This document shows positions 14,624-43,453 of a DNA stretch of 64,000 nucleotides, one piece after another (position 1 is the first letter of the stretch; the number at the start of each line of letters is the position of its first letter). Location of the stretch: positions 124,001 to 188,000 of the forward strand of contig NZ_VEFS01000002.1 in NCBI RefSeq assembly GCF_007679045.1. The letters are read 5' to 3'. The stretch comes from Microbacterium sp. BH-3-3-3 (GTDB lineage Bacteria > Actinomycetota > Actinomycetes > Actinomycetales > Microbacteriaceae). The notes beneath the pieces are model-generated. The model did not search any database. It was not told the origin of the DNA and saw nothing but the letters and a program-made list of their open reading frames with translations. Both the position numbers and the translations under genes were made by a program.

Positions 14624-16138
14624 ATGTCTCAACCGCCTGCACCCACGGACTCCGCCCACCCCCCGACACGCGACATCGTCCTGTCGCCGCGGCATCGGTG
14701 GCGGGCGTACTGGGTGGCCGTGGCGGTGGCCGCTCTCACGATCCTCGACCTGACGAAGGTCAACGTCGCGCTGCCCTCCATCGAGGCGGCGCTGAACGCC
14801 GGGCCGACCGAGCTGCAGCTCGTCGTGTCGGGGTACATCCTGACGTTCGGCCTCGTGCTGGTCCCCGCCGGTCGGCTCGGCGACCTGCGCTCGCGCCGCA
14901 TGCTCTTCCTGGTGGGGCTGTCGCTCTTCCTCGTCACGAGCCTCGCGTGCGCGCTGGCGCCGAATACGACGGTGCTGCTGGTCGCGCGCCTGTTGCAGGG
15001 GGTGGCGGCCGGCATTCAGATGCCGCAGGTGCTGGGGCTCGTGCAGCAGCTGTTCCAGGGCAAAGAGCGCGGTCGCGCCTTCGGCTTGTTCGGAGCCACG
15101 ATCGGAATCGCCACCGCGTTCGGTCCCACCCTCGGCGGCCTGCTGATCGCCCTGGGCGGCGACACCGACGGCTGGCGCCTGATCTTCTGGATCAACATCC
15201 CCCTCGTGGCGATCGTGATCGCCCTCGCGGCGTGGCTGCTCCCCGACACCCGGACGAAGTCGCATCGTCGGCTCGATCTCGACCCGGTCGGGGTGGTGCT
15301 GTTCGCTCTGACGATCCTCGCCCTCATGTGGCCGTTCCTGTTCACCACCGGCAGCCCCGACGATGACCCGAACCGGTGGTGGTTCCTCGTGGCATCCGTC
15401 GTGTTCGCCGCGGCGTTCGTGTTCTGGGAGCGCCGGTACGCCGAGCGGGGCCACATGCCGCTCATGCCGTTCTCGATCTTCTCGCTGTCGTCGTACCGCA
15501 ACGGCGTGCTGATCTCGACGGCCTACTTCTCCGCCGTGCCCGCGATGTTCCTGCTCGGCACCCTGTTCCTCCAGGGCGGACTCGGGCTCGCTCCGGTCTT
15601 CGCCGGAATGGTGACCATCGGTTTCGCGGTGGCCTCGGCCGGCAGCTCGTGGATCGGCGGCAATCTCGTCACCCGATTCGGACGCCCCCTGGTGGTCTGG
15701 GGCATCCTCGGCATGGTCGTCACCGCGGGCGCCCTCGTGCTTGTCGCGCTCTTCACGGCACCCGAGTGGACGCCGTGGGCGATGGCCGCGGTCATGGCCT
15801 TCGGCGGGTTCGCCGGCGGTCTCGTCATCTCGCCGAACCAGACGCTCACGCTGGCCGAGATCCCGGTCAAGAGCGGCGGCGTCGCGGGCTCGGTCGGACA
15901 GCTGGGGCAGCGCATCGGAACCGCGGTCGGAACCGCGATCGCCCTCGCGTTGTTCTACGCCACGGTCTACCGCGAGCAGGGGAGCGTCGACGATCAGGCC
16001 GTGCTGTACCACGACGCCTACGCGTCGGGGATGATCACGGTCGGCGTCTTCCTGGGCCTCGCACTCATCGTGGGCGTCGCCGATCTCGCCGGCCGCGCCC
16101 GCTCGGGTTCGCAGACGCCGTTCGGCAGCGACGACTAG
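14624..16138 (+). CDS. MFS transporter, DHA2 (14-helix) drug-exporter type
   Basis: A 504-residue major facilitator protein. ATG 14624 is preferred because a TAGCGT box lies 8 nt upstream. The N-terminal cytoplasmic stretch is followed by about 14 hydrophobic segments. Family signs are LDLTKVNVALPSIEAAL (helix 1), GRLGDLRSRR (motif A loop between helices 2 and 3) and RLLQGVAAGIQMPQ (motif B). It should export small molecules by proton antiport. Its stop codon shares the CTAG tetranucleotide with the stop of the convergent nucleosidase gene. Confidence 0.9.
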   Translation: MSQPPAPTDSAHPPTRDIVLSPRHRWRAYWVAVAVAALTILDLTKVNVALPSIEAALNAGPTELQLVVSGYILTFGLVLVPAGRLGDLRSRRMLFLVGLSLFLVTSLACALAPNTTVLLVARLLQGVAAGIQMPQVLGLVQQLFQGKERGRAFGLFGATIGIATAFGPTLGGLLIALGGDTDGWRLIFWINIPLVAIVIALAAWLLPDTRTKSHRRLDLDPVGVVLFALTILALMWPFLFTTGSPDDDPNRWWFLVASVVFAAAFVFWERRYAERGHMPLMPFSIFSLSSYRNGVLISTAYFSAVPAMFLLGTLFLQGGLGLAPVFAGMVTIGFAVASAGSSWIGGNLVTRFGRPLVVWGILGMVVTAGALVLVALFTAPEWTPWAMAAVMAFGGFAGGLVISPNQTLTLAEIPVKSGGVAGSVGQLGQRIGTAVGTAIALALFYATVYREQGSVDDQAVLYHDAYASGMITVGVFLGLALIVGVADLAGRARSGSQTPFGSDD

Positions 16139-16692
16139 ACGCCGTAGCGGGTGCGGAACTCCGCGCGCAGCTCGTGGCTGCAGCGCTCGACGACGTCGTC
16201 CCACAGCTCGGTGGCGCCGTCCTGGGCACGGTCCGACACGGCGCGGAGAACCTGGACCGGCACCTCGAACTGCTGCGCGACCCAGATCAGGGCGTAGGTC
16301 TCCATGTCGACCAGGCTGGCGCCGAGACCGCGGATGAGGCGCACGGACTCCGCGTCGTCGACGAAGTGGTCACCGGTCGCGATGACCACGCCCTCGACCC
16401 CGGTGTCCACACGGGTGGGCAGCGAGACGTGCTCGCCGAACGTCCCGTCGAGGCCCTTCACATCGTGCTGGATCGCTCCCGCGATGTCGTAGATACCGCC
16501 CTCGACCTCGTCGTCGATGGCTCCGGCGGTGCCCACCACGATGATCTCGTCGTACTCCCCGGTCGTGAGAGCCCGCGTGAGGGCGTAGGCCGCCGGGATC
16601 TTGCCGACTCCCGTGAGCAGACGCTCGAAACCGGGGATGTCGTCTTCGAAGGCGACGAGTTCTGAGGCATGGGCGGCGACGAGAAGCTTCAC
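16135..16692 (-). CDS. Nucleosidase of the MTA/SAH nucleosidase-phosphorylase family
   Basis: A 185-residue protein if GTG 16692 is used (VKLLVAAHASEL); a start at 16725 would add 11 residues. Features of the PNP_UDP_1 fold are LLTGVGKIPAAYAL, VVGTAGAID, the ribose-binding LVDMETYA and the catalytic-Asp region RAVSDRAQDGA. It should cleave an N-glycosidic bond, such as that of methylthioadenosine, S-adenosylhomocysteine or a related nucleoside. It is shorter than typical Pfs/MtnN (about 230), so the exact substrate is uncertain. Confidence 0.8.
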   Translation of the reverse strand: MKLLVAAHASELVAFEDDIPGFERLLTGVGKIPAAYALTRALTTGEYDEIIVVGTAGAIDDEVEGGIYDIAGAIQHDVKGLDGTFGEHVSLPTRVDTGVEGVVIATGDHFVDDAESVRLIRGLGASLVDMETYALIWVAQQFEVPVQVLRAVSDRAQDGATELWDDVVERCSHELRAEFRTRYGV

Positions 16693-16743
16693 CCTGCCAT
16701 TGTCCCCGATCGGTGAAGCGCTCACCGACCTCCGGGACCGGAA

Positions 16744-35770: not shown

Positions 35771-36649
35771 TCAGCGCCCGGCGCCGGCGGTGAGGCCGGC
35801 CTTGACGTGCCGCTGCGCGGCGAGGATCACCACGAGCGCGGGCAGGCTCGCGATGAGCGAGGCCGCCATCGTGGCCGCCCACGTGTTCAGGTTGGAGTTC
35901 GACAGCGCGAGGATCAGCACCGACATCGGGTACATCTCGTTGCGATTGACCAGGGTCAGACCGAACAGCAGATCGCCCCAGCTGAAGAGGAACGCGAAGA
36001 CGCCCGCTGTCACGATCGCGTTGCGCGAGAGGGGCACGACAATGCGCCAGAGCGTTCCGAACGGCCCGAGTCCGTCGACCGTCGCGGCCTCGAGCACCTC
36101 GGTGTCGAGGCGCAGCATGAACGCGCGCATGACGATGACGGCGAAGGGGACGCCCGCGGTCGAGTTCGCCAGGATCAGGCCGATGAAGGTGTTGAGCAGT
36201 CCCCACGAGTTGAACATCGCGTAGAACGAGGTGGCCAGCACGACGCTCGGGATCATCTGCGCCAGCAGCAGCAGGATGAGCGCGATGCTCACCGCCCGCG
36301 AGCGCAGCCGGCTGAGCGCGTAGGCCGCCGGGATCGACACCAGCAGGGTGACCAGCACCGAGCCGAGCGAAACGAGGGTGGTGACGCGGAGGCCGCCGAT
36401 GCCCGCGTCGTCGAGCGCCTTCTCGTATCCCCCGAGGCCGGGCGCCGTGGGGAACCACTGCGTGTCCGCCGAGTTGGCGGAGGGCTGCAGCGAGGCGGAG
36501 ACCATCCAGTACACGGGGAAGAGGTAGACCACCAGCACGGCGATGGTGACGAGGGTCCACATCCATCCGCGGCGCCGGCGACGTCGCGCGACGGGAGGGG
36601 CGGATGCCGGGGCGACCACGGCGGGCGCGGAGGGAAGGGTGGCGGTCAT
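35771..36649 (-). CDS. Carbohydrate-type ABC transporter permease (MalG-like)
   Basis: A 292-residue permease. ATG 36649 overlaps the upstream permease stop by 4 nt. A basic stretch RRRRRRG precedes the first helix. Six hydrophobic segments and the EAA loop EAATVDGLGPFGTLWRI (ATPase contact) are present. It should form the channel with the MalF-like protein. It is the last gene of a three-gene importer operon that contains no ATPase. Confidence 0.93.
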   Translation of the reverse strand: MTATLPSAPAVVAPASAPPVARRRRRRGWMWTLVTIAVLVVYLFPVYWMVSASLQPSANSADTQWFPTAPGLGGYEKALDDAGIGGLRVTTLVSLGSVLVTLLVSIPAAYALSRLRSRAVSIALILLLLAQMIPSVVLATSFYAMFNSWGLLNTFIGLILANSTAGVPFAVIVMRAFMLRLDTEVLEAATVDGLGPFGTLWRIVVPLSRNAIVTAGVFAFLFSWGDLLFGLTLVNRNEMYPMSVLILALSNSNLNTWAATMAASLIASLPALVVILAAQRHVKAGLTAGAGR

Positions 36650-37590
36650 TCTTCGCGCTCCCGACGCATCGACATCACGGTGTAGACGATCGCGAACACC
36701 ACGCTGATCCCCAGCAGGAGCATTCCGTACGCGCCGCCCAGACCGAACTGGAACTGCTGGAACGCCTGCCGGTAGGAGAGCAGGCCCAGGGTCACGGTGC
36801 TGTTGGCGGGGCCGCCCGCGGTGAGAACGAGCACGAGGTCGACGATCAGCAGGGTGTAGACCACGCTCATCACGACGAGAACGGAGACGACGGGCCAGAT
36901 GGTCGGCAGCACGATCGCGGTCAGTCTCCGCCACGCGCCGGCGCCGTCGAGCTGGGCGGCTTCGAGCTGTTCGGCGGGGACCTGCTTGAGGGCGGCGCCG
37001 AGGATCGTCGCCCAGTAGGGGAGGCTCGCCCAGACGGCCACGACGATGACCGACGGCAGCGCGGTCGCCGGATTCGCGAGCCACGCCTGGACGGGCAGGC
37101 CGAGTGCACCGAGCACGTCGTTGATGGGGCCGTCACCGGCCAGCAGCGACTTCCACACCGTGGCGACGACCACGGCCGGCAGCAGCCACGGAAGAAGGAT
37201 GAGCGTCGGCAGCCACCGGCTGCCCGGGAAGGTGCGGGCGAACAGCAGGGCGAGCAGCAGGCCGAGCACCAGCTCGACGGCGACCGAGACGAGCGTGATG
37301 GTGAGGGTGTTCGCGAGTGCGCGGAAGGTGATGGGCTCGGCCAGCACGGCCTCAAAGTTCGTCGTGCCCACGAAGGGCGCGCGCCCCGTGATGAAGGTGC
37401 CGGTGGTGAAGTTCGTCGTGCTCATGTAGACGCCGTACCCGAGCGGGAACAGGAAGAACACGACGAAGAAGACCAGCGCGGGGGTCAGGAACCCCCACAG
37501 CTCGCCCCGCCGGCGGGCGGCCAGAGAACGCCGGAACCGGCCGGGGGCGGGTGCCCCCGACCGGCCGGTCGAGATGGTGTGGGCCGTCAC
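36646..37590 (-). CDS. Carbohydrate-type ABC transporter permease (MalF-like)
   Basis: A 314-residue permease. GTG 37590 overlaps the binding-protein stop (GTGA). After a basic N-terminus (FRRSLAARRRGELWG) there are six hydrophobic segments, with the EAA loop EAAQLDGAGAWRRLTAI. It pairs with the MalG-like permease. Related systems import sugars, glycosides or nucleosides; the nucleoside hydrolase gene next door makes a ribonucleoside-like substrate plausible but unproven. Confidence 0.93.
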   Translation of the reverse strand: MTAHTISTGRSGAPAPGRFRRSLAARRRGELWGFLTPALVFFVVFFLFPLGYGVYMSTTNFTTGTFITGRAPFVGTTNFEAVLAEPITFRALANTLTITLVSVAVELVLGLLLALLFARTFPGSRWLPTLILLPWLLPAVVVATVWKSLLAGDGPINDVLGALGLPVQAWLANPATALPSVIVVAVWASLPYWATILGAALKQVPAEQLEAAQLDGAGAWRRLTAIVLPTIWPVVSVLVVMSVVYTLLIVDLVLVLTAGGPANSTVTLGLLSYRQAFQQFQFGLGGAYGMLLLGISVVFAIVYTVMSMRREREE

Positions 37591-38825
37591 TTGCCGCTGG
37601 CCTGCTCCAGTGCGGCCTGGGCGGTCTGCCCGCCGACCGTCGCGCTCTGGATCGCGTCGACGTACTCCTGCTGCAGCGTGTTCCACTCGGTGCCCAGCTG
37701 TGCGGAGTTGTAGGCGCCGTCGACCGCGTCGACGAACGGGGCGGCCGCGGGGACCTTCTCGACGAAGGCGTCCTGCGCGCTCTTGAGCGCGGGGATGTAG
37801 CCGCCCTGAACGGCGGTGTCGATCTGGTTCTCCTCCGAGGCGCGGCACTTCACGAGGGCCGCGGCGGCGGCCTCCTTCTGCGCGTCGGCGTTGGCGGCGA
37901 CGCCGTAGGCGTAGCCGAGCAGGTTCACCTTGGGCGACTCGCCGCTCTTCGCGGTCGGGAACGGGAAGGTGCCCCACTCGAAGGGGATCGAGGTGTCGAC
38001 GAGGTTCCACGGACCCGAGACCGTCATCGCCGCGGCACCCGAGGTCCACTGGTCGATGGACTCCCAGCCCCAGTTGACGAACTCGGTTGACAGCGAGCCG
38101 TTGCCCACGAGGTTCTTGTAGAGGTCGACCGCCTCGACGGCGCCGGCGCCGGTCGGGTCGGCGGGGTCGCCGCCCGCGGAGAGCAGGAACGGCAGGAAGT
38201 AGACCGGCGTCGAGCCGTCGCCGCCAATGCCCGGCAGCACGATGCCCTTCTGCGAGCCGGTGGTGAGCGAACCCGCGAGCGACACCAGGTCGTCGAAGGT
38301 CTTCGGGGCGGTCTCGGGCACACCCGCCGCCGCGAACGCGGCCTTGTTGTAGAAGATCGCGTAGTCCTCGACCTGCACGGGCAGGCCGTACAGGGTGCCG
38401 TCGTAGCGGCCGAGGTCGGCGGCGCTGTCGGCGAGGCCGTCGGTGGTGACGTCGTACTGGCTGAGATCGGCGAGGACCCCCTGCGAGGCGAGCTGCGGCA
38501 GCTGCGTGTCGGTGGAGAGGATCGCGACGTCGGGCAACGCCTTGGCACCGGCCGCTTGCAGGAGCTTCGTGGTGTAGTCGCCCGACTGCGTCTGCACGTC
38601 GACCGTGATGCCGAGGTCGGCGGCGCACGACTCGAAGTAGCCCTTCTGCAGGCTCTGGTACGGCTCGAAGTCGATGTTGTTCCAGACCGTGAGCTGGACG
38701 CCCTTGAATCCGTCGCTGGACACGGGGGCGGCCTGGCCGCCCGCGCAGGCAGTGAGGGCGAGGGCGGCGGTCAGACCGACCGCGGGCAGCGCGAGACGTC
38801 GCAGCCGCTGAGACGAGGAAGCCAT
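37587..38825 (-). CDS. Extracellular solute-binding lipoprotein (family 1)
   Basis: A 412-residue binding protein. The signal MASSSQRLRRLALPAVG is followed by lipobox LTAC (about residues 24-27). The mature protein has family 1 features: VQLTVWNNIDFEPYQSLQKG, KALPDVAILSTDTQLPQL, GTLYGLPVQVEDYAIFYNK and INAMTVSGPW-type AAAMTVSGPWNLVD. It should deliver a sugar-like substrate to the two permeases encoded downstream, and is the first gene of the operon. The nucleoside hydrolase gene is divergent across a 179-nt gap. Confidence 0.94.
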   Translation of the reverse strand: MASSSQRLRRLALPAVGLTAALALTACAGGQAAPVSSDGFKGVQLTVWNNIDFEPYQSLQKGYFESCAADLGITVDVQTQSGDYTTKLLQAAGAKALPDVAILSTDTQLPQLASQGVLADLSQYDVTTDGLADSAADLGRYDGTLYGLPVQVEDYAIFYNKAAFAAAGVPETAPKTFDDLVSLAGSLTTGSQKGIVLPGIGGDGSTPVYFLPFLLSAGGDPADPTGAGAVEAVDLYKNLVGNGSLSTEFVNWGWESIDQWTSGAAAMTVSGPWNLVDTSIPFEWGTFPFPTAKSGESPKVNLLGYAYGVAANADAQKEAAAAALVKCRASEENQIDTAVQGGYIPALKSAQDAFVEKVPAAAPFVDAVDGAYNSAQLGTEWNTLQQEYVDAIQSATVGGQTAQAALEQASGK

Positions 38826-38918
38826 GGTGTGTCCGTTCCCGACGACGTTGGGGGCGTCGTTCGACCTGTGCTGAGGAGGGTGCGGGCCGGTGCCGCCCGC
38901 ATCACCCCCCACTGTGGA

Positions 38919-38965
38919 GTGTTGACGTGACGAACAGGGAACAGACGTGTCACGCGATGTAACAC
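38919..38965. promoter_or_regulatory. Possible operator between the importer and nucleoside hydrolase genes
   Basis: Two nested inverted pairs, GTGTT (38919-38923)/AACAC (38961-38965) and CGTGAC (38926-38931)/GTCACG (38949-38954), lie in the divergent region. Spacing is not symmetric. The TTGACG at 38922 could be a -35 element for the hydrolase gene. No matching regulator gene is nearby. Confidence 0.3.
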
Positions 38966-39004
38966 CACGCCGTGTCGCCGCCGCCGACTTGGCAGGGTGA
39001 GTGC

Positions 39005-39994
39005 ATGGCATCCGTCCCCTCCTCCGTCCGCCGCGTCGTCGTCGACACCGACACCGGCCTCGACGACGCCCACTCGCTCATGTACCTGCTGGCGCAGCCC
39101 GACGTCGAGATCGAGGCGATCACGACGATCTACGGCAACACGCCCGTCGAGGATTCGGCCCGCAACGTCCGCACGGTGCTGCGCCTGGCCGGCCGCGAGG
39201 ACATTCCGCTGCACCTGGGCGAGGCCGCGCCGCTGGAGGGCGAGGCGTCGATCGCCGACTTCGTGCACGGCACCGACGGGCTGGGCGACCGCTTCGAGCG
39301 GGCGGAGCTGCGCGTCGAGGACGAGAGCGCGGTCGACGCCATCGTGCGCATCGCGGCGGAGAGCCCGGGCGAGGTCGACCTGCACCCGCTCGGTCCCCTG
39401 ACCAACATCGCCCGCGCGCTCGAACGCGACCCCGATCTGTTCCTGAAGTACCGCTCGGTCGTCATCATGGGCGGGGCGGGTCCGTACCCCGCGCCGGGCG
39501 GCGCCACGCTGACCGACGCCAACACGGCGAACGATCGCCTCGCCGCCGAGATCGTCTTCGGGGCGCGCAATGCCGGCAACGTCGTCATGGTGGGCGTCAA
39601 CGTCACGGCGACCGCGATCCTCGACGAGCACGTGCTCGCGGTGCTGCGCGGGAAGGGCACGCCCTGGGCGAGCTTCGCCGGCGAGGTGCTCGACGCCTAC
39701 AACGACTTCTACCAGTACAAGTGGGGCCGGCGGATCTCGTCCGCCCACGACGGCCTGGCCACGGTCGTGCTGCACCGCCCCGAGATCGTCACGGGCTGGA
39801 TCGAAGGGCCCGTCGACTACACGCCGTACGGCGGTTCGCTCGCGACCCGCATCGCGCTCACCGCCGACGGACTGCCGCTGGTGTGGGGGACGCCCGAGGG
39901 GTCGACCGTCCGCGCGGTGACCTCGTTCGATCGCACGGCGTTCCTGCGCCTGTTCGTCGACGCGCTCTCGAGCGGACCGGCTCCGCGCGCCTGA
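39005..39994 (+). CDS. Nucleoside hydrolase
   Basis: A 329-residue enzyme of the inosine-uridine nucleoside hydrolase family, which splits ribonucleosides into base and ribose. The Ca-binding N-terminus reads VVVDTDTGLDDAHSLMYLL (the canonical motif is DTDPGxDDA, so Pro is Thr here). ITTIYGNTPVEDSARNV, HPLGPLTNIARAL, VVIMGGAG and a TANDRLAAEIVF region are as expected. ATG 39005 follows AGGGTGAG. It diverges from the sugar-type ABC importer and ends at a shared terminator. Confidence 0.92.
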   Translation: MASVPSSVRRVVVDTDTGLDDAHSLMYLLAQPDVEIEAITTIYGNTPVEDSARNVRTVLRLAGREDIPLHLGEAAPLEGEASIADFVHGTDGLGDRFERAELRVEDESAVDAIVRIAAESPGEVDLHPLGPLTNIARALERDPDLFLKYRSVVIMGGAGPYPAPGGATLTDANTANDRLAAEIVFGARNAGNVVMVGVNVTATAILDEHVLAVLRGKGTPWASFAGEVLDAYNDFYQYKWGRRISSAHDGLATVVLHRPEIVTGWIEGPVDYTPYGGSLATRIALTADGLPLVWGTPEGSTVRAVTSFDRTAFLRLFVDALSSGPAPRA

Positions 39995-40075: not shown

Positions 40076-41371
40076 TCACACCCGGGCGGTGGCCCGTTCG
40101 TGCGCGGCGAGGCCCGCCCAGTGGATCTCTCCGCCGACGACGGTCAGTGACGCCTCGCCCGGACCCGATTCGACGAGCTCGACGAGCGCGTCGCGGGGAT
40201 CGGTGCTCGACACGTCGAAAACCGCCAGGTCGGCCCGCGCATCGGGACGCAGCACGCCGGTGTCGTCGAGACCCAGGGCGTGCGCGCCGCCCGCGGTGGC
40301 CGCGGCGAAGAGGCGCTCGTGCAGGTCGTCGTCGGCGTAGCCCTGGTCGCGGGCGATGTCGTGGAGCGCGGCGACGTCATGCCAGATCGACAGGCTCGGC
40401 GACGACGACAGCGAGTCGGTGCCGACGGCGATCGCGTTGCCCTCGCGGAGGTAGGCCGCCACGGGCGGCGCGTCGAGGCCGATCACGCGGTTCGAGCGCG
40501 GGCAGAGCGCGACGCTGACGCCGCGTGCGCGGAGCAGGGCGCGATCGTCGGCGGCGACGTAGATGCCGTGCGCGAGGTGGGTCGTCGGGCTCAACGCGCC
40601 CAGGCCGTCGAGGTAGCGGATGACCCCCGTGCCCACCCCGCCGCCCTGCAGCAGCGCGAACTCGCCGCGGCCGTTGGCGCGCCAGCGCTCGGCGAGGTCG
40701 CCGGTGCCCGAGCGCACGTACGCGTCCTCCCACGCCGACTCCGCGGCGTGGATGTGCTGGCGCACGCCGAGCTCGGCGGACAGGCGCGAGAGCTCGCGGA
40801 TCACCCCGGTGTCGAGGGAGTAGACCGCGTGGGGCGACAGACCCGTCGCGGGCGGCGAGGGGAGCGCCGAGAGCTGGGCCCGTACGCGCTCCTCTCCTCC
40901 CTCCGCCCACGTGCGATCGGTGTAGCCGAGGACCTCCCAGAACGCCACGCCGTGCAGACCCGCGTCGTGCACGGCGCTTCCGGCCGCGGCATCCGTCACG
41001 ATCTCGGCGACCGAGGTCGTCCCCGAACGCAGAGCGAGGGCCGCACCGGCGGCAGCCGAGGCGCTCCAGTCGCGGGGCAGGGGGTACAGCGCCATGAAGG
41101 CGCTCATCCACGACTCGAAGCCGGCGTGCTGGGCACTGCCGACCTCGGCCATGTCGGTGTACTGCAGGTGCGTGTGGGCGTTGACGAGCCCCGGGGTGAG
41201 GGCGCCGCGGTGCTCGTGGACGCTGGTCGCCGCCGAGTCGAGCGCGGCCAGCACCTCGTCGGCGGTGCCCACCGCGACGAGGCGGCCCCCGGCCACGGCC
41301 ACCGCCCCGTCGACGAGAGCAGGGCGCCCGGCCGAGAGGACGACCGGCGCCCGGTGGACCTCGACGCTCAC
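40076..41371 (-). CDS. Amidohydrolase, nucleoside or aromatic deaminase type
   Basis: A 431-residue metal-dependent hydrolase of the ATZ/TRZ/MtaD superfamily. GTG 41371 overlaps the stop of the AdoHcyase-like gene (GTGA). Metal ligands are visible: HxH in LTPGLVNAHTHLQYTD, His in HIHAAESAWED, His in LAHGIYVAADD, and Asp in AVGTDSLSSSP. Such enzymes deaminate S-adenosylhomocysteine, methylthioadenosine, guanine, aminodeoxyfutalosine or similar. Coupling to an AdoHcyase homologue suggests an adenosyl or inosyl compound, but this is inference. Confidence 0.9.
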   Translation of the reverse strand: MSVEVHRAPVVLSAGRPALVDGAVAVAGGRLVAVGTADEVLAALDSAATSVHEHRGALTPGLVNAHTHLQYTDMAEVGSAQHAGFESWMSAFMALYPLPRDWSASAAAGAALALRSGTTSVAEIVTDAAAGSAVHDAGLHGVAFWEVLGYTDRTWAEGGEERVRAQLSALPSPPATGLSPHAVYSLDTGVIRELSRLSAELGVRQHIHAAESAWEDAYVRSGTGDLAERWRANGRGEFALLQGGGVGTGVIRYLDGLGALSPTTHLAHGIYVAADDRALLRARGVSVALCPRSNRVIGLDAPPVAAYLREGNAIAVGTDSLSSSPSLSIWHDVAALHDIARDQGYADDDLHERLFAAATAGGAHALGLDDTGVLRPDARADLAVFDVSSTDPRDALVELVESGPGEASLTVVGGEIHWAGLAAHERATARV

Positions 41372-42624
41372 TCGTCGCCGTCCTCGGGGTGCCACGCCGC
41401 GAGGAACGCCGTCTGCGCCGCCGAGGGCACGTCGAGGGCGCCCCCGAAAGAGCCGAGCGCGATCGCCGCCACCTCGTCGTCGGCCGCGCGCGGCAGGTCG
41501 TGCACGCCCGGGGCGAGATCGGGGGTGACCAAAAGGTGCGCGACCGAGGCGAGCTGCACGCCGAACGACAGGTCCATGATCTCGACTGGATTGCCCTCGG
41601 CCGCGCTGACGTTGAGGCAGTTGCCGTCGTCGAGCACGCGCACCCGGGCGCCGCTCGGCATCCGCAGCACCGACACCGCGGCGTCGCGCGAGATCTCGAC
41701 GGCCCCCGCGGCGCGAGCGGCGTCGAGCGCGATCTCCTGCCCCACGCCGCCGCCGACGGCGACGATCGCCCCGGTGGGCAGCGCGTCGAGATGGGCGACG
41801 TCGATCGTGTGCCGGATGCCGGTGGCCGAGATGACGATGTCGGCGCGGCGCACGGCGTCGGCGAGCGGGCGCACCTCGTACCCCGCGAACGCCGCCTGCA
41901 GGGCCGCCACCGCGTCGGTCTCGGTCACCACGACGCGCGCGCCGAGGGCGGCGCAGTGCTGCGCGATCCCCGTGCCGACGCGCCCGTAGCCGACCACGAC
42001 GACCGTGGCCCCGCGCAGCGATCGGTCGGCCACGTCGGCGACGGCGAACACGACCGACTGGCCGGTCCCGTGCATGTTGTCGAACAGCGACTTCGAGCGG
42101 GCGTCGTTCGCGGCGACGACCGGGATGCGCAGCGCGCCGTCGGCCTGCATGCGGCGCAGCGGCCGGACCCCCGAGGTGGTCTGCTCGGTCGCTCCGCGCA
42201 TCTCGGCGACCACGTCGGGACGCTCGAGGTGGGCGAGGCGGATGGTCGAGGCGCCGTCGTCGACGATCACCTGCGGCCGGTGATCGATCAGGGCGAGGGC
42301 GTTCGCCCGGTCATCGGCGCGCTCGGCGTCGGCCCGGGCGTACACGGGGAGACCCGCGTGCGCGAGGGCGGCGGCGACGGCGTCGTCGGTGTTGCGGCCC
42401 GCGGAGGTGACGGTCACCTCGGCACCGGCCTCGGCGAGGGCGAGCGCGACGGTGGCGGTCTTCGGCTCGAGCACGTCGGACACCCCGGTCCGGATGCCGG
42501 CGACCGTCCCCTCGCTCGCGAGACGCGCGGCGAGGGCCGAGGTGACGGGCATGTGCGCGCGCGCCCACTCGATGCGGTCGAGGCCCGCACGCCACAGCGA
42601 GGCGTCGGCGATGCGGCCGGTCAC
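41368..42624 (-). CDS. Divergent S-adenosylhomocysteine hydrolase homologue
   Basis: A 418-residue AdoHcyase-family protein. Conserved are Asp122/Asp123 (VDDGAS), Glu147 (ATEQTTSG), Lys178 (NDARSKSLFDN), Asp182, Asn183 and the NAD motif VVGYGRVGTGIAQ (about 210-222). Three histidines of the canonical enzyme are missing: Val51 lies where His55 is expected (SDVLEPKTA for LHMxxxTA), AIVAVGGGVGQEI replaces AIVxNxGHFDxEI, and GNPVEIMDLSF replaces GHPxxVMxxSF. The chemistry or substrate is therefore probably altered. It overlaps both neighbours by 4 nt. True AdoHcyase may be encoded elsewhere. Confidence 0.88.
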   Translation of the reverse strand: MTGRIADASLWRAGLDRIEWARAHMPVTSALAARLASEGTVAGIRTGVSDVLEPKTATVALALAEAGAEVTVTSAGRNTDDAVAAALAHAGLPVYARADAERADDRANALALIDHRPQVIVDDGASTIRLAHLERPDVVAEMRGATEQTTSGVRPLRRMQADGALRIPVVAANDARSKSLFDNMHGTGQSVVFAVADVADRSLRGATVVVVGYGRVGTGIAQHCAALGARVVVTETDAVAALQAAFAGYEVRPLADAVRRADIVISATGIRHTIDVAHLDALPTGAIVAVGGGVGQEIALDAARAAGAVEISRDAAVSVLRMPSGARVRVLDDGNCLNVSAAEGNPVEIMDLSFGVQLASVAHLLVTPDLAPGVHDLPRAADDEVAAIALGSFGGALDVPSAAQTAFLAAWHPEDGDE

Positions 42625-43385
42625 GGGGTCACCGCCCGGGCGTAGACGCCGCGGGGATCGTCGGGGCCGCCGTCGACGACCAGAGCCGCGATCAGCGCGT
42701 CGAGGATGCGCCGCTGCGCGCTCGTGGGCGCGGCGCCGTCGACGGGCAGGGGAGAGGGCATCTCGACGAGCGATCCTTTCGAGGTGGTGCGCACGAAGGG
42801 GCGCGGCGAGGGAGCGGGGGAGGCGTCGGCCGGCCGCGGTGAGGCGTCGGCCACGAGCCCCGCGACGTCGTCGATGCCGAGGGCGTCGTATCCGACGCCG
42901 GTGAGGATCGCGGAGGGGGTGGAGCCCGACGTCGCCGCCGCCACGTCCTCGACGCGCACGCCGTCGAGAGTCGCGGTCAGCCGCTCCACGGGGTCGTCCG
43001 TGGAGCGCACCACGCTCGCGCCGAGGCGGCGGAGAAGCGCCGTCAACGCGGTGGCGAGGGAGGAGTCGCCGACGATGCGGACCGTGCTGCCGGCGAGGGT
43101 GAGGTTCGTGCGGGCCGAGAGGGCCAGCACCACCTGCTCCGCGCGGAGACGGCTGTACACGACGTCGAACACGCGCGACGAGAGCGGATCGACCGCGTTC
43201 TCGTCGTACGCGACCTCGAGGCCCAGCTCATCGCGCAGGGCGGAGCGCCAGCCCGGGGAGAGCGCGGGAAGGCTGCCGCCGTACGAGAGGGGGCGGGCGG
43301 AGGGGGAGGGCGCCGCGAGCAGGCGGCGGGTGGCGGGCAGAGCGTCGGCGAGCCCGTGGGGTGGAGCGGGATGAGTGGACGACAC
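42621..43385 (-). CDS. Degenerate AdoHcyase-like Rossmann protein
   Basis: A 254-residue protein from GTG 43385, which lies 6 nt after TACGTT; a start at 43427 is possible. It has no obvious standard annotation. Residues from SSRVFDVVYSRLRAEQVVLAL through LAGSTVRIVGDSSLATALTA and LLRRLGASVVRSTDDPVE can be aligned by eye with KSLFDNMHGTGQSVVFAVAD, LRGATVVVVGYGRVGTGIAQ and HCAALGARVVVTETDAVA of the downstream protein. The Lys and Asp of the active site and the GxGxxG motif are lost. The C-terminal third is Pro/Ser-rich. It may be a non-catalytic partner of the downstream enzyme. It is the first gene of the three-gene operon. Confidence 0.75.
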   Translation of the reverse strand: MSSTHPAPPHGLADALPATRRLLAAPSPSARPLSYGGSLPALSPGWRSALRDELGLEVAYDENAVDPLSSRVFDVVYSRLRAEQVVLALSARTNLTLAGSTVRIVGDSSLATALTALLRRLGASVVRSTDDPVERLTATLDGVRVEDVAAATSGSTPSAILTGVGYDALGIDDVAGLVADASPRPADASPAPSPRPFVRTTSKGSLVEMPSPLPVDGAAPTSAQRRILDALIAALVVDGGPDDPRGVYARAVTP

Positions 43386-43391
43386 GGCTCG

Positions 43392-43397
43392 AACGTA
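43392..43397 (-). promoter_or_regulatory. -10 box of a leaderless promoter
   Basis: TACGTT on the minus strand, 6 nt before GTG 43385 of the three-gene AdoHcyase-like operon. Confidence 0.55.
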
Positions 43398-43453
43398 GGG
43401 CGCGAACCCGGTTCGGCGCGAATTCACGACGCCGCGTCCCTAAGATGTCGCTC

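Follow-up and report, generated by a model that had tools for sequence, protein, structure and literature searches.

An operon of Microbacterium sp. BH-3-3-3 encoding a divergent AdoHcyase homologue, a shrunken paralogue, and a deaminase-type amidohydrolase

Organization of the operon

A 64,000-nucleotide stretch of Microbacterium sp. BH-3-3-3 DNA (contig NZ_VEFS01000002.1, positions 124,001 to 188,000; hereafter the window) contained three genes on the minus strand, P0003, P0002, and P0001 in this order, encoding a degenerate paralogue of adenosylhomocysteinase (AdoHcyase), a divergent AdoHcyase homologue, and a metal-dependent amidohydrolase, respectively (Table 1). The P0002-type proteins are called beta below, and full-length paralogues encoded directly 5' of beta in some relatives are called alpha. 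Both gene junctions were 4-nucleotide (nt) GTGA overlaps, as described in the original prediction, which had been made from the DNA alone. All three genes were under purifying selection when the window was compared with four related loci (L100–L103; 10 pairs for each gene). The selection was strongest on P0002, with dN/dS values of 0.07–0.14, against 0.14–0.27 for P0001 and 0.28–0.46 for P0003 in the five genomes. The closest named loci among the matches listed were those of Microbacterium sp. CSI-V, M. enclense, sp. 5K110, and sp. RURRCA19A, in which P0002 showed 88–89% identity.

The start of P0003 was taken as the GTG at 43385. This GTG and the TACGTT element upstream were both retained in five of five sequences (the window and L100–L103), and the GTG was the earliest start codon of the open frame in L100–L103; the frame of the window held a further GTG at 43427. 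No conserved −35 element was seen upstream of P0003. The proposed leaderless promoter is therefore plausible in close relatives, but the TACGTT/GTG pattern was missing at the assumed start sites of L104 and L107. Position 43397, the limit of the originally given range, is the edge of the promoter and not a gene end. Riboswitch control was rejected, because an Rfam search gave no match at the operon, either in the window or in seven related loci; its two matches were to a tRNA (L072) and to a fluoride riboswitch (L067). The latter (L067:2885–2974) lay approximately 1.7 kb 5' of a fused P0002-type gene and is probably unrelated to it.

Table 1. Positions of the operon and of neighboring genes in the window
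Feature	Position	Strand
P0003, probable alpha remnant; apparently shrunken AdoHcyase paralogue without catalytic motifs, 254 amino acids (aa), GTG start	42621..43385	-
P0002, AdoHcyase-like beta protein, 418 aa	41368..42624	-
P0001, metal-dependent deaminase-type amidohydrolase, 431 aa	40076..41371	-
TACGTT, −10-like element, 7–12 nt 5' of P0003 GTG	43392..43397	-
Nucleoside hydrolase (PF01156, 211 bits), start uncertain, convergent with the operon	38972..39994	+
Solute-binding protein of a sugar-type ATP-binding cassette (ABC) importer, start uncertain	37587..39011	-
ABC permease A of the same importer	36646..37590	-
ABC permease B of the same importer	35771..36661	-

Active site of P0002

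In Pfam searches, P0002 matched both AdoHcyase domains, PF00670 (105.3 bits) and PF05221 (93.8 bits), which bore out its description as AdoHcyase-like. It exceeded the cut-off of the NCBIfam adenosylhomocysteinase equivalog NF004005 (374 bits, cut-off 275) and did not reach that of TIGR00936 (330.7 bits, cut-off 497.6). Its best sequence match among solved structures was 3x2e, listed as a thermophilic hydrolase/adenosylhomocysteinase.

Active-site positions are given below in what we take to be the numbering of human AdoHcyase. P0002 had Val51, Gln148, Gly293, Val294, and Asn345 at positions 55, 156, 301, 302, and 353, and retained Lys178, Asp182, Asn183, Asn173, and Asp123, corresponding to Lys186, Asp190, Asn191, Asn181, and Asp131, together with the NAD motif GxGxxG (G212xG214xxG217). 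The sequence alignment thus reproduced the predicted replacement of three histidines (positions 55, 301, and 353) by Val51, Gly293, and Asn345, which fall inside otherwise conserved blocks. The predicted retention of the catalytic residues stood for Lys186, Asp190, Asp131, and the NAD motif, but not for Glu156, which is Gln148 in P0002; the glutamate that P0002 does retain is its neighbor at position 155. The spacing of 30 residues between Glu156 and Lys186 was checked against Glu205 and Lys235 of the lupin enzyme in PMC13406329.

These sites were then counted in relatives. The 80 named loci (L100–L179) were the best matches to alignment A1, selected by similarity; 60 of them contained beta and 20 did not, and some repeated genomes of the family survey (L127 and L056, L131 and L070, and L134 and L061). 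The 61 beta rows comprise P0002 and the 60 beta loci. Only matches of 600 bases or more entered the site counts, and neither a degenerate alpha (L112) nor a second AdoHcyase homologue of the window genome (S2) was included. Position 55 was Val in 46 rows, Phe in six, Thr in three, Pro and Ile in two each, and Met in one, with one row (L108) lacking coverage; His55 was thus missing in all 60 rows that cover the position. Position 301 was Gly in 59 rows and Ala in two, with no His in any of the 61, and position 353 was Asn in 59 and His in two. The alignment therefore placed no histidine at positions 55 and 301 of P0002-type proteins, where their presence would have spoken against the original prediction. 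By contrast, His55 and His301 were retained by six alpha rows and by 20 other HxExK rows. Asp131, Lys186, Asp190, and Asn191 were kept in 61/61 beta rows and Asn181 in 60/61. Gln replaced Glu156 in P0002 and eight other Microbacterium rows, and Glu was present in the other 52. Arg129 of P0002 (position 137) was invariant in the 61 beta rows, and this arginine was found in none of six alpha, 20 other HxExK, and nine canonical rows and in one of nine S2-type rows. The family survey (26 rows) gave the same residue picture, with one decayed row, L073, which has lost Asp131 and other residues; not every copy is thus sound.

P0002 contained the ExK part (Glu53 and Lys55) of the HxExK motif without its His (Val51), and ExK was present in 60/61 beta rows, the exception being L108, which lacks coverage there. 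According to Koeppl 2024 (PMC10978960), S-inosylhomocysteine is the preferred substrate of HxExK enzymes and S-adenosylhomocysteine (SAH) that of HxTxE(Q) enzymes, and the Lys of HxExK reaches the oxygen at C6 of inosine. The retention of ExK therefore predicts, at the level of sequence, a hypoxanthine nucleoside as the substrate type of P0002-type proteins. The review PMC13406329 describes for lupin AdoHcyase that Lys235 takes the 3'-OH proton, aided by Asn230, Asn240, and Glu205, that Asp139 takes the C4' proton, and that His62 protonates the leaving sulfur. These residues correspond to Lys178, Asn173, Asn183, Gln148, Asp123, and Val51 of P0002, respectively. P0002 thus appears to keep the first, redox half of the mechanism except for Glu156, whereas the donor for thiol release and the His301-Phe302 gate (Gly293-Val294) appear to be gone.

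Conserved neighborhood in relatives

Gene calls in the loci of relatives were made by a crude caller in high-GC DNA. A P0001-type gene lay 3' of beta on the same strand in 57 of the 60 beta loci (masked tblastn, >60 bits), so that the gene order looked for in other genomes was found to be conserved. The unmasked search (>80 bits) gave 58/60, adding L132 at 29%. L144 carried an Amidohydro_1 gene directly 3' of beta, which was read as two overlapping frames, and no deaminase-type gene was found within locus L135. In the 20 non-beta AdoHcyase loci, the P0001 query reached at least 60 bits in one (masked) and at least 80 bits in five, at 26–30% (unmasked). A chance neighborhood was rejected on the basis of 57/60 beta loci against 1/20 non-beta loci in the masked search, a comparison that leans towards beta because the deaminase queries were drawn from beta loci. 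The deaminase query from L113 reached 60 bits in 10 of the 20 non-beta loci, and other HxExK enzymes often stood near a deaminase relative. A looser link between HxExK enzymes and deaminases may therefore predate beta.

Genes for uptake also accompanied beta. An amino-acid-type solute-binding protein was encoded beside it in 39/60 loci (tblastn, >60 bits), a sugar-type binding protein in 10 (eight of the window kind and two of the L113 kind), a substrate component of the energy-coupling factor (ECF) type in six, and a BMP/PnrA nucleoside-type importer in two (L144, which is the query itself, and L132, a 33% match). A Cupin_5 gene stood beside beta in 36/60 loci, and LacI-type regulators occurred in some. 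That the importers vary while the enzyme core stays constant suggests an external substrate with nucleoside and perhaps amino-acid features. Among the split-type Microbacterium loci (n = 8), all had the sugar-type importer and seven a nucleoside hydrolase gene, which lay directly before the P0003 homologue in L105; L113 also had one upstream. We infer that the nucleoside hydrolase and the sugar-type importer are functionally linked to the operon.

Seven of the eight split-type loci also had a flavin mononucleotide (FMN) monooxygenase gene of the NtaA/DmoA family, located after the deaminase gene (L105:9597–10961, 461 bits to TIGR03860, and six other Microbacterium loci). In the window, the gap between P0001 and the nucleoside hydrolase gene was 81 bp, which leaves no gene between them, and thus the window is without the monooxygenase at that place.

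Deaminase-type amidohydrolase P0001

P0001 matched the amidohydrolase family PF01979 with 127 bits, in agreement with its prediction as a metal-dependent hydrolase of the deaminase type. His67-x-His69, His207-x-His209, Glu212, His269, and Asp320 (numbered from one codon before the GTG) were kept in at least 95% of 82 aligned homologues, which were the matches spanning more than 330 residues. Among these, we take His67, His69, His207, Glu212, His269, and Asp320 to have the metal-binding and catalytic roles. The best sequence match among solved structures was 2imr, the hypothetical protein DR_0824. In NCBIfam, P0001 scored highest with 8-oxoguanine deaminase (111.6 bits, cut-off 532), and lower with aminofutalosine deaminase (106.9, cut-off 320), 5'-deoxyadenosine deaminase (105.7, cut-off 522), and methylthioadenosine (MTA)/SAH deaminase (54.7, cut-off 779). 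From the family, the conservation of the active site, and the gene neighborhood, we infer a deaminase role for P0001.

A second amidohydrolase gene of the genome, encoding a P0001-like protein, was located at L214:5969–7731 (G000:C11, approximately 1435470–1437230). It was followed by a Cupin_5 gene and adjoined genes resembling rpsF-ssb-rpsR-rplI by eye. No AdoHcyase-like gene was matched in the 13-kb locus L214.

Probable origin of P0003

P0003 matched the AdoHcyase Rossmann domain weakly (18.8 bits in Pfam, below the cut-off of 27, and 24.9 bits in NCBIfam). An AlphaFold2 model built from a 12-sequence alignment had a predicted local distance difference test (pLDDT) value of 83.7 and a predicted template modeling (pTM) score of 0.83. 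VIA-align placed 234 of the 254 residues on residues 10–397 of the 7r37 chain (Z 15.5, 3.5 Å). Foldseek matched the same model at E 1e-7 with a query template modeling (TM) score of 0.41–0.53, the rigid superposition being poorer than that of VIA-align. The best 50 Foldseek rows and the best 50 VIA rows were all AdoHcyases or AdoHcyase-like proteins. Because VIA-align places the model end to end on whole AdoHcyases, P0003 looks like a shrunken AdoHcyase that has lost much of the catalytic domain, and like more than a Rossmann half. The original prediction had taken it for a degenerate paralogue of the Rossmann half; the loss of motifs and the weak Rossmann match agree with this, but the model spans a whole AdoHcyase.

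Relatives contained several forms of the partner. A full-length alpha gene stood directly 5' of beta in L059, L113, L115, L132, L135, and L144, and a further tandem alpha-beta pair was found in L215. All three histidines were present in five of the six alphas (L059, L113, L115, L135, and L144), L132 having Asn at position 353; the catalytic residues were complete or nearly so, with Gln at Glu156 in one of six. L112 encoded a degenerate full-length alpha of 368 aa that had lost its motifs. Short separate partner genes occurred in the window, L100–L107, L109, L116, L133, L137, L053, and L054. Beta carried an in-frame N-terminal domain in 12 of 24 family-survey loci by motif and in four more by alignment, and remnant, beta, and deaminase shared one open frame in L066 (1,135 codons), L071 (1,054), and L138 (1,101). 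Taken together, the relatives suggest a series that starts with tandem alpha, passes through a degenerate full-length copy and then short genes, and ends with an N-terminal domain fused to beta. In a one-chain model of the fused relative L140 (pLDDT 90.8, pTM 0.88), the beta part aligned with 7r3a over 386 residues (Z 41.9, 2.1 Å) and with human 1li4 at Z 37.2.

In a quick phylogenetic tree, which had several long branches, left out L108, and carried only support values of the Shimodaira–Hasegawa-like approximate likelihood ratio test (SH-aLRT), beta formed one clade (86 rows, support 98) and alpha another (eight rows including the degenerate L112, support 100). A hidden Markov model (HMM) of 12 partner genes gave median scores of 56.8 for alpha, in a set that includes L112, 47.6 for S-inosylhomocysteine hydrolase (SIHH) types, 43.0 for S2 types, 34.7 for canonical AdoHcyases, and 23.8 for beta. 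A Microbacterium-only partner HMM did not separate them (best beta 41.3, best alpha 41.1), and an HMM of the fused domains alone scored S2 and SIHH types highest. The degenerate gene probably originated from the alpha of tandem pairs. An origin of P0003 as a copy of beta was disfavored, the 12-gene HMM scoring alpha best and beta at 23.8.

Distribution and possible SAH routes of the genome

Among 150 family genomes, at least 26, that of the window included, carried beta (at least 43% identity, among the matches listed), as did 31 of 149 genomes of the genus at E ≤ 1e-75, 12 of them at 66–100% (the window kind) and 19 at 47–50%. Named carriers included Microbacterium, Curtobacterium, Leucobacter, Nocardia, Mycolicibacterium, Streptosporangium, Bifidobacterium, Schaalia, Demequina, a Rhizobiales bacterium, and a Dormiibacter metagenome-assembled genome. 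Several carriers in the family also held a canonical AdoHcyase. Beta is thus a patchy accessory system.

A PF05221 search of the window genome, which addressed the earlier question of whether a canonical ahcY lies elsewhere, found P0002 and S2 only and no canonical ahcY. The genome contained LuxS (168 bits, contig C13) and, at 16135–16725 of the window, a gene for a PNP_UDP_1 nucleosidase-like protein (73.7 bits) whose 31.5 bits with TIGR01704 fell short of the cut-off of 73.8. LuxS and the nucleosidase-like gene may together provide the SAH route here.

Proposed pathway and alternative explanations

Gene sets of this kind, which many actinobacteria carry next to nutrient importers, probably degrade an imported adenosine compound in a manner not yet described. 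On balance, we favor a role of the operon as the enzymatic core of a salvage or catabolic route that is linked to import and handles a 5'-substituted adenosine compound. P0001 and P0002 would act in turn, with P0003 as a non-catalytic partner; SAH is one candidate substrate. P0001 would deaminate the adenine ring to hypoxanthine, judging from its family and conserved active site. P0002 would bind the resulting inosyl compound through Glu53 and Lys55 of ExK, oxidize the 3'-OH with NAD+ by means of Lys178, Asp182, Asn173, and Asn183, and loosen the C4' hydrogen with Asp123. The step at C5' is probably unlike normal hydrolysis, because P0002 lacks His55 and the His301-Phe302 gate and its invariant Arg129 is a new residue. 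P0003, the putative remnant of a once complete alpha, would stabilize or regulate P0002 without any chemistry of its own, and the neighboring nucleoside hydrolase and sugar-type ABC importer may complete the route in the window. The two-step scheme of a deaminase and an AdoHcyase homologue with a degenerate partner, as originally predicted, agrees with the gene order, the shared frames, ExK, and the tandem pairs; the part of it that assumed a retained catalytic Glu did not hold.

More tentatively, P0002-type proteins may represent a new activity of the AdoHcyase superfamily that keeps NAD+-dependent 3'-oxidation and C4' deprotonation and has given up the thiol-type acid/base at C5' and the gate. 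Their substrate would be a 5'-substituted inosine with a leaving group that requires no proton, or one that is bulky or anionic and read by Arg129; alternatively, they would stop before hydration. They would work as an obligate pair with a paralogue stripped of chemistry and often fused to them.

Several observations weigh against the salvage route. P0002 lacks the reported proton donor and has Gln148 for Glu156, and judged by these residues it may be very slow or inactive; where alpha and beta are both intact, alpha rather than beta may do the chemistry. P0001 falls below every NCBIfam deaminase cut-off, and the second P0001-like gene of the genome (54% identity) stands apart from AdoHcyase-like genes, so that the deaminase type also exists without P0002. 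In the 150 family genomes, the P0003 query gave a strong match to itself and, in 17 others, matches no better than 4.8e-6, many of them within AdoHcyase genes. The partner, importer, and extra genes differ between lineages.

The missing proton donor bears on two other explanations. If P0002 were an SIHH with a variant donor, the operon would be the known deaminase and SIHH route. ExK and the deaminase partner fit this, the amino-acid-type importers of many relatives fit an amino-acid-bearing substrate, and another residue such as His185 of P0002 might donate the proton. However, the sulfur proton donor His reported in PMC13406329 and the gate His are missing in the beta rows, and position 185 is His in just 17/61, so we regard this explanation as unlikely. 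Somewhat less likely again is a regulatory role of P0002 without catalysis, comparable to that of the mammalian AdoHcyase-like proteins, with P0001 as the sole enzyme. The loss of His55, His301, and His353, and in Microbacterium of Glu156 as well, would be expected of such a protein, and its partner P0003 is already without catalytic motifs. On the other hand, Asp131, Lys186, Asp190, and Asn191 are kept in every beta row, P0002 is under the strongest purifying selection, and operons with a remnant alpha have no AdoHcyase-like catalyst left other than beta.

Two further functions appear highly improbable. As no canonical ahcY was found in the genome and P0002 exceeds the NF004005 cut-off (374 against 275 bits), P0002 could be the ordinary housekeeping SAH hydrolase of the strain. 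However, LuxS and a nucleosidase-like gene, the latter below the TIGR01704 cut-off, are present, and beta is patchy (31/149 genus genomes) and in several family carriers accompanies a canonical AdoHcyase; a housekeeping ahcY function as the main role was therefore rejected. A biosynthetic operon, for example for a nucleoside-derived natural product or cofactor, could account for the odd retention of a paralogue and for the FMN monooxygenase added in seven of eight split-type loci, whereas importers of four kinds, the LacI-type regulators of some loci, and the nucleoside hydrolase point to uptake and breakdown, as in the salvage route favored here.

Relation to known systems

A route through SIHH and a 5'-deoxyadenosine/SAH deaminase is reported for Methanocaldococcus jannaschii and Thermotoga maritima in PMC10978960. 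The operon resembles it in combining a deaminase with an AdoHcyase homologue, in an ExK that would read hypoxanthine, and in archaeal-type length. It differs in that P0002 has no His of HxExK and no His-Phe gate, has Asn for the third His, and has Arg129, and in having a degenerate second paralogue, a deaminase below the NCBIfam cut-offs, and importers alongside. The operon is thus a variant of the known theme of a deaminase and an AdoHcyase homologue, in which a specialized enzyme without the usual histidines has an evolutionary remnant for a putative partner.

In comparison with AdoHcyase (ahcY), P0002 shares both Pfam domains, the NAD motif, Lys186, Asp190, Asp131, and, as judged from the fused relative L140, the fold; it differs in the replacement of His55, Glu156, His301, Phe302, and His353 and in having ExK instead of TxE/Q. 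Mammalian AHCYL1 and AHCYL2 are non-hydrolytic AdoHcyase-like paralogues that act as partners or regulators. P0003 is likewise a non-hydrolytic paralogue and a putative partner or regulator, but it is shrunken to 254 aa, its counterpart is fused to beta in many relatives, and it belongs to a bacterial operon with a deaminase. P0001 has the amidohydrolase family and the metal-site residues in common with aminofutalosine, 5'-deoxyadenosine, and SAH deaminases and with DR_0824 (2imr), and lies outside each NCBIfam equivalog of these deaminases. A search of the open literature (titles and the starts of abstracts among the papers listed, with few subscription journals) gave nothing on such an operon or on a tandem or remnant AdoHcyase pair.

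The mechanism and key residues of AdoHcyase are described as exceptionally conserved in PMC13406329. In the mostly deaminase-linked beta clade, the redox half of the active site is kept and the C5' half is dropped, and forms from the tandem pair to the fused remnant still coexist. Because NF004005 scores P0002 above its cut-off, such genes risk being misread as ordinary SAH hydrolases in reconstructions of the methyl cycle. The distribution of beta points to an uptake route for adenosyl compounds in Microbacterium, Curtobacterium, Leucobacter, Bifidobacterium, Nocardia, and others.

A second AdoHcyase homologue of the genome

S2, a protein of 377 aa, was encoded at G000:C12:245909–247042 (L003 and L216). 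In nine of nine rows of the S2 type, His55 and His301 were present, whereas Asp131 was replaced by Asn, Asp190 by Glu, and His353 by Asn. By these residues, the S2 type appears to be another divergent AdoHcyase class in the family. An adenosine deaminase gene (PF00962, 174.6 bits; L216:12777–13910) was located approximately 11 kb from S2.

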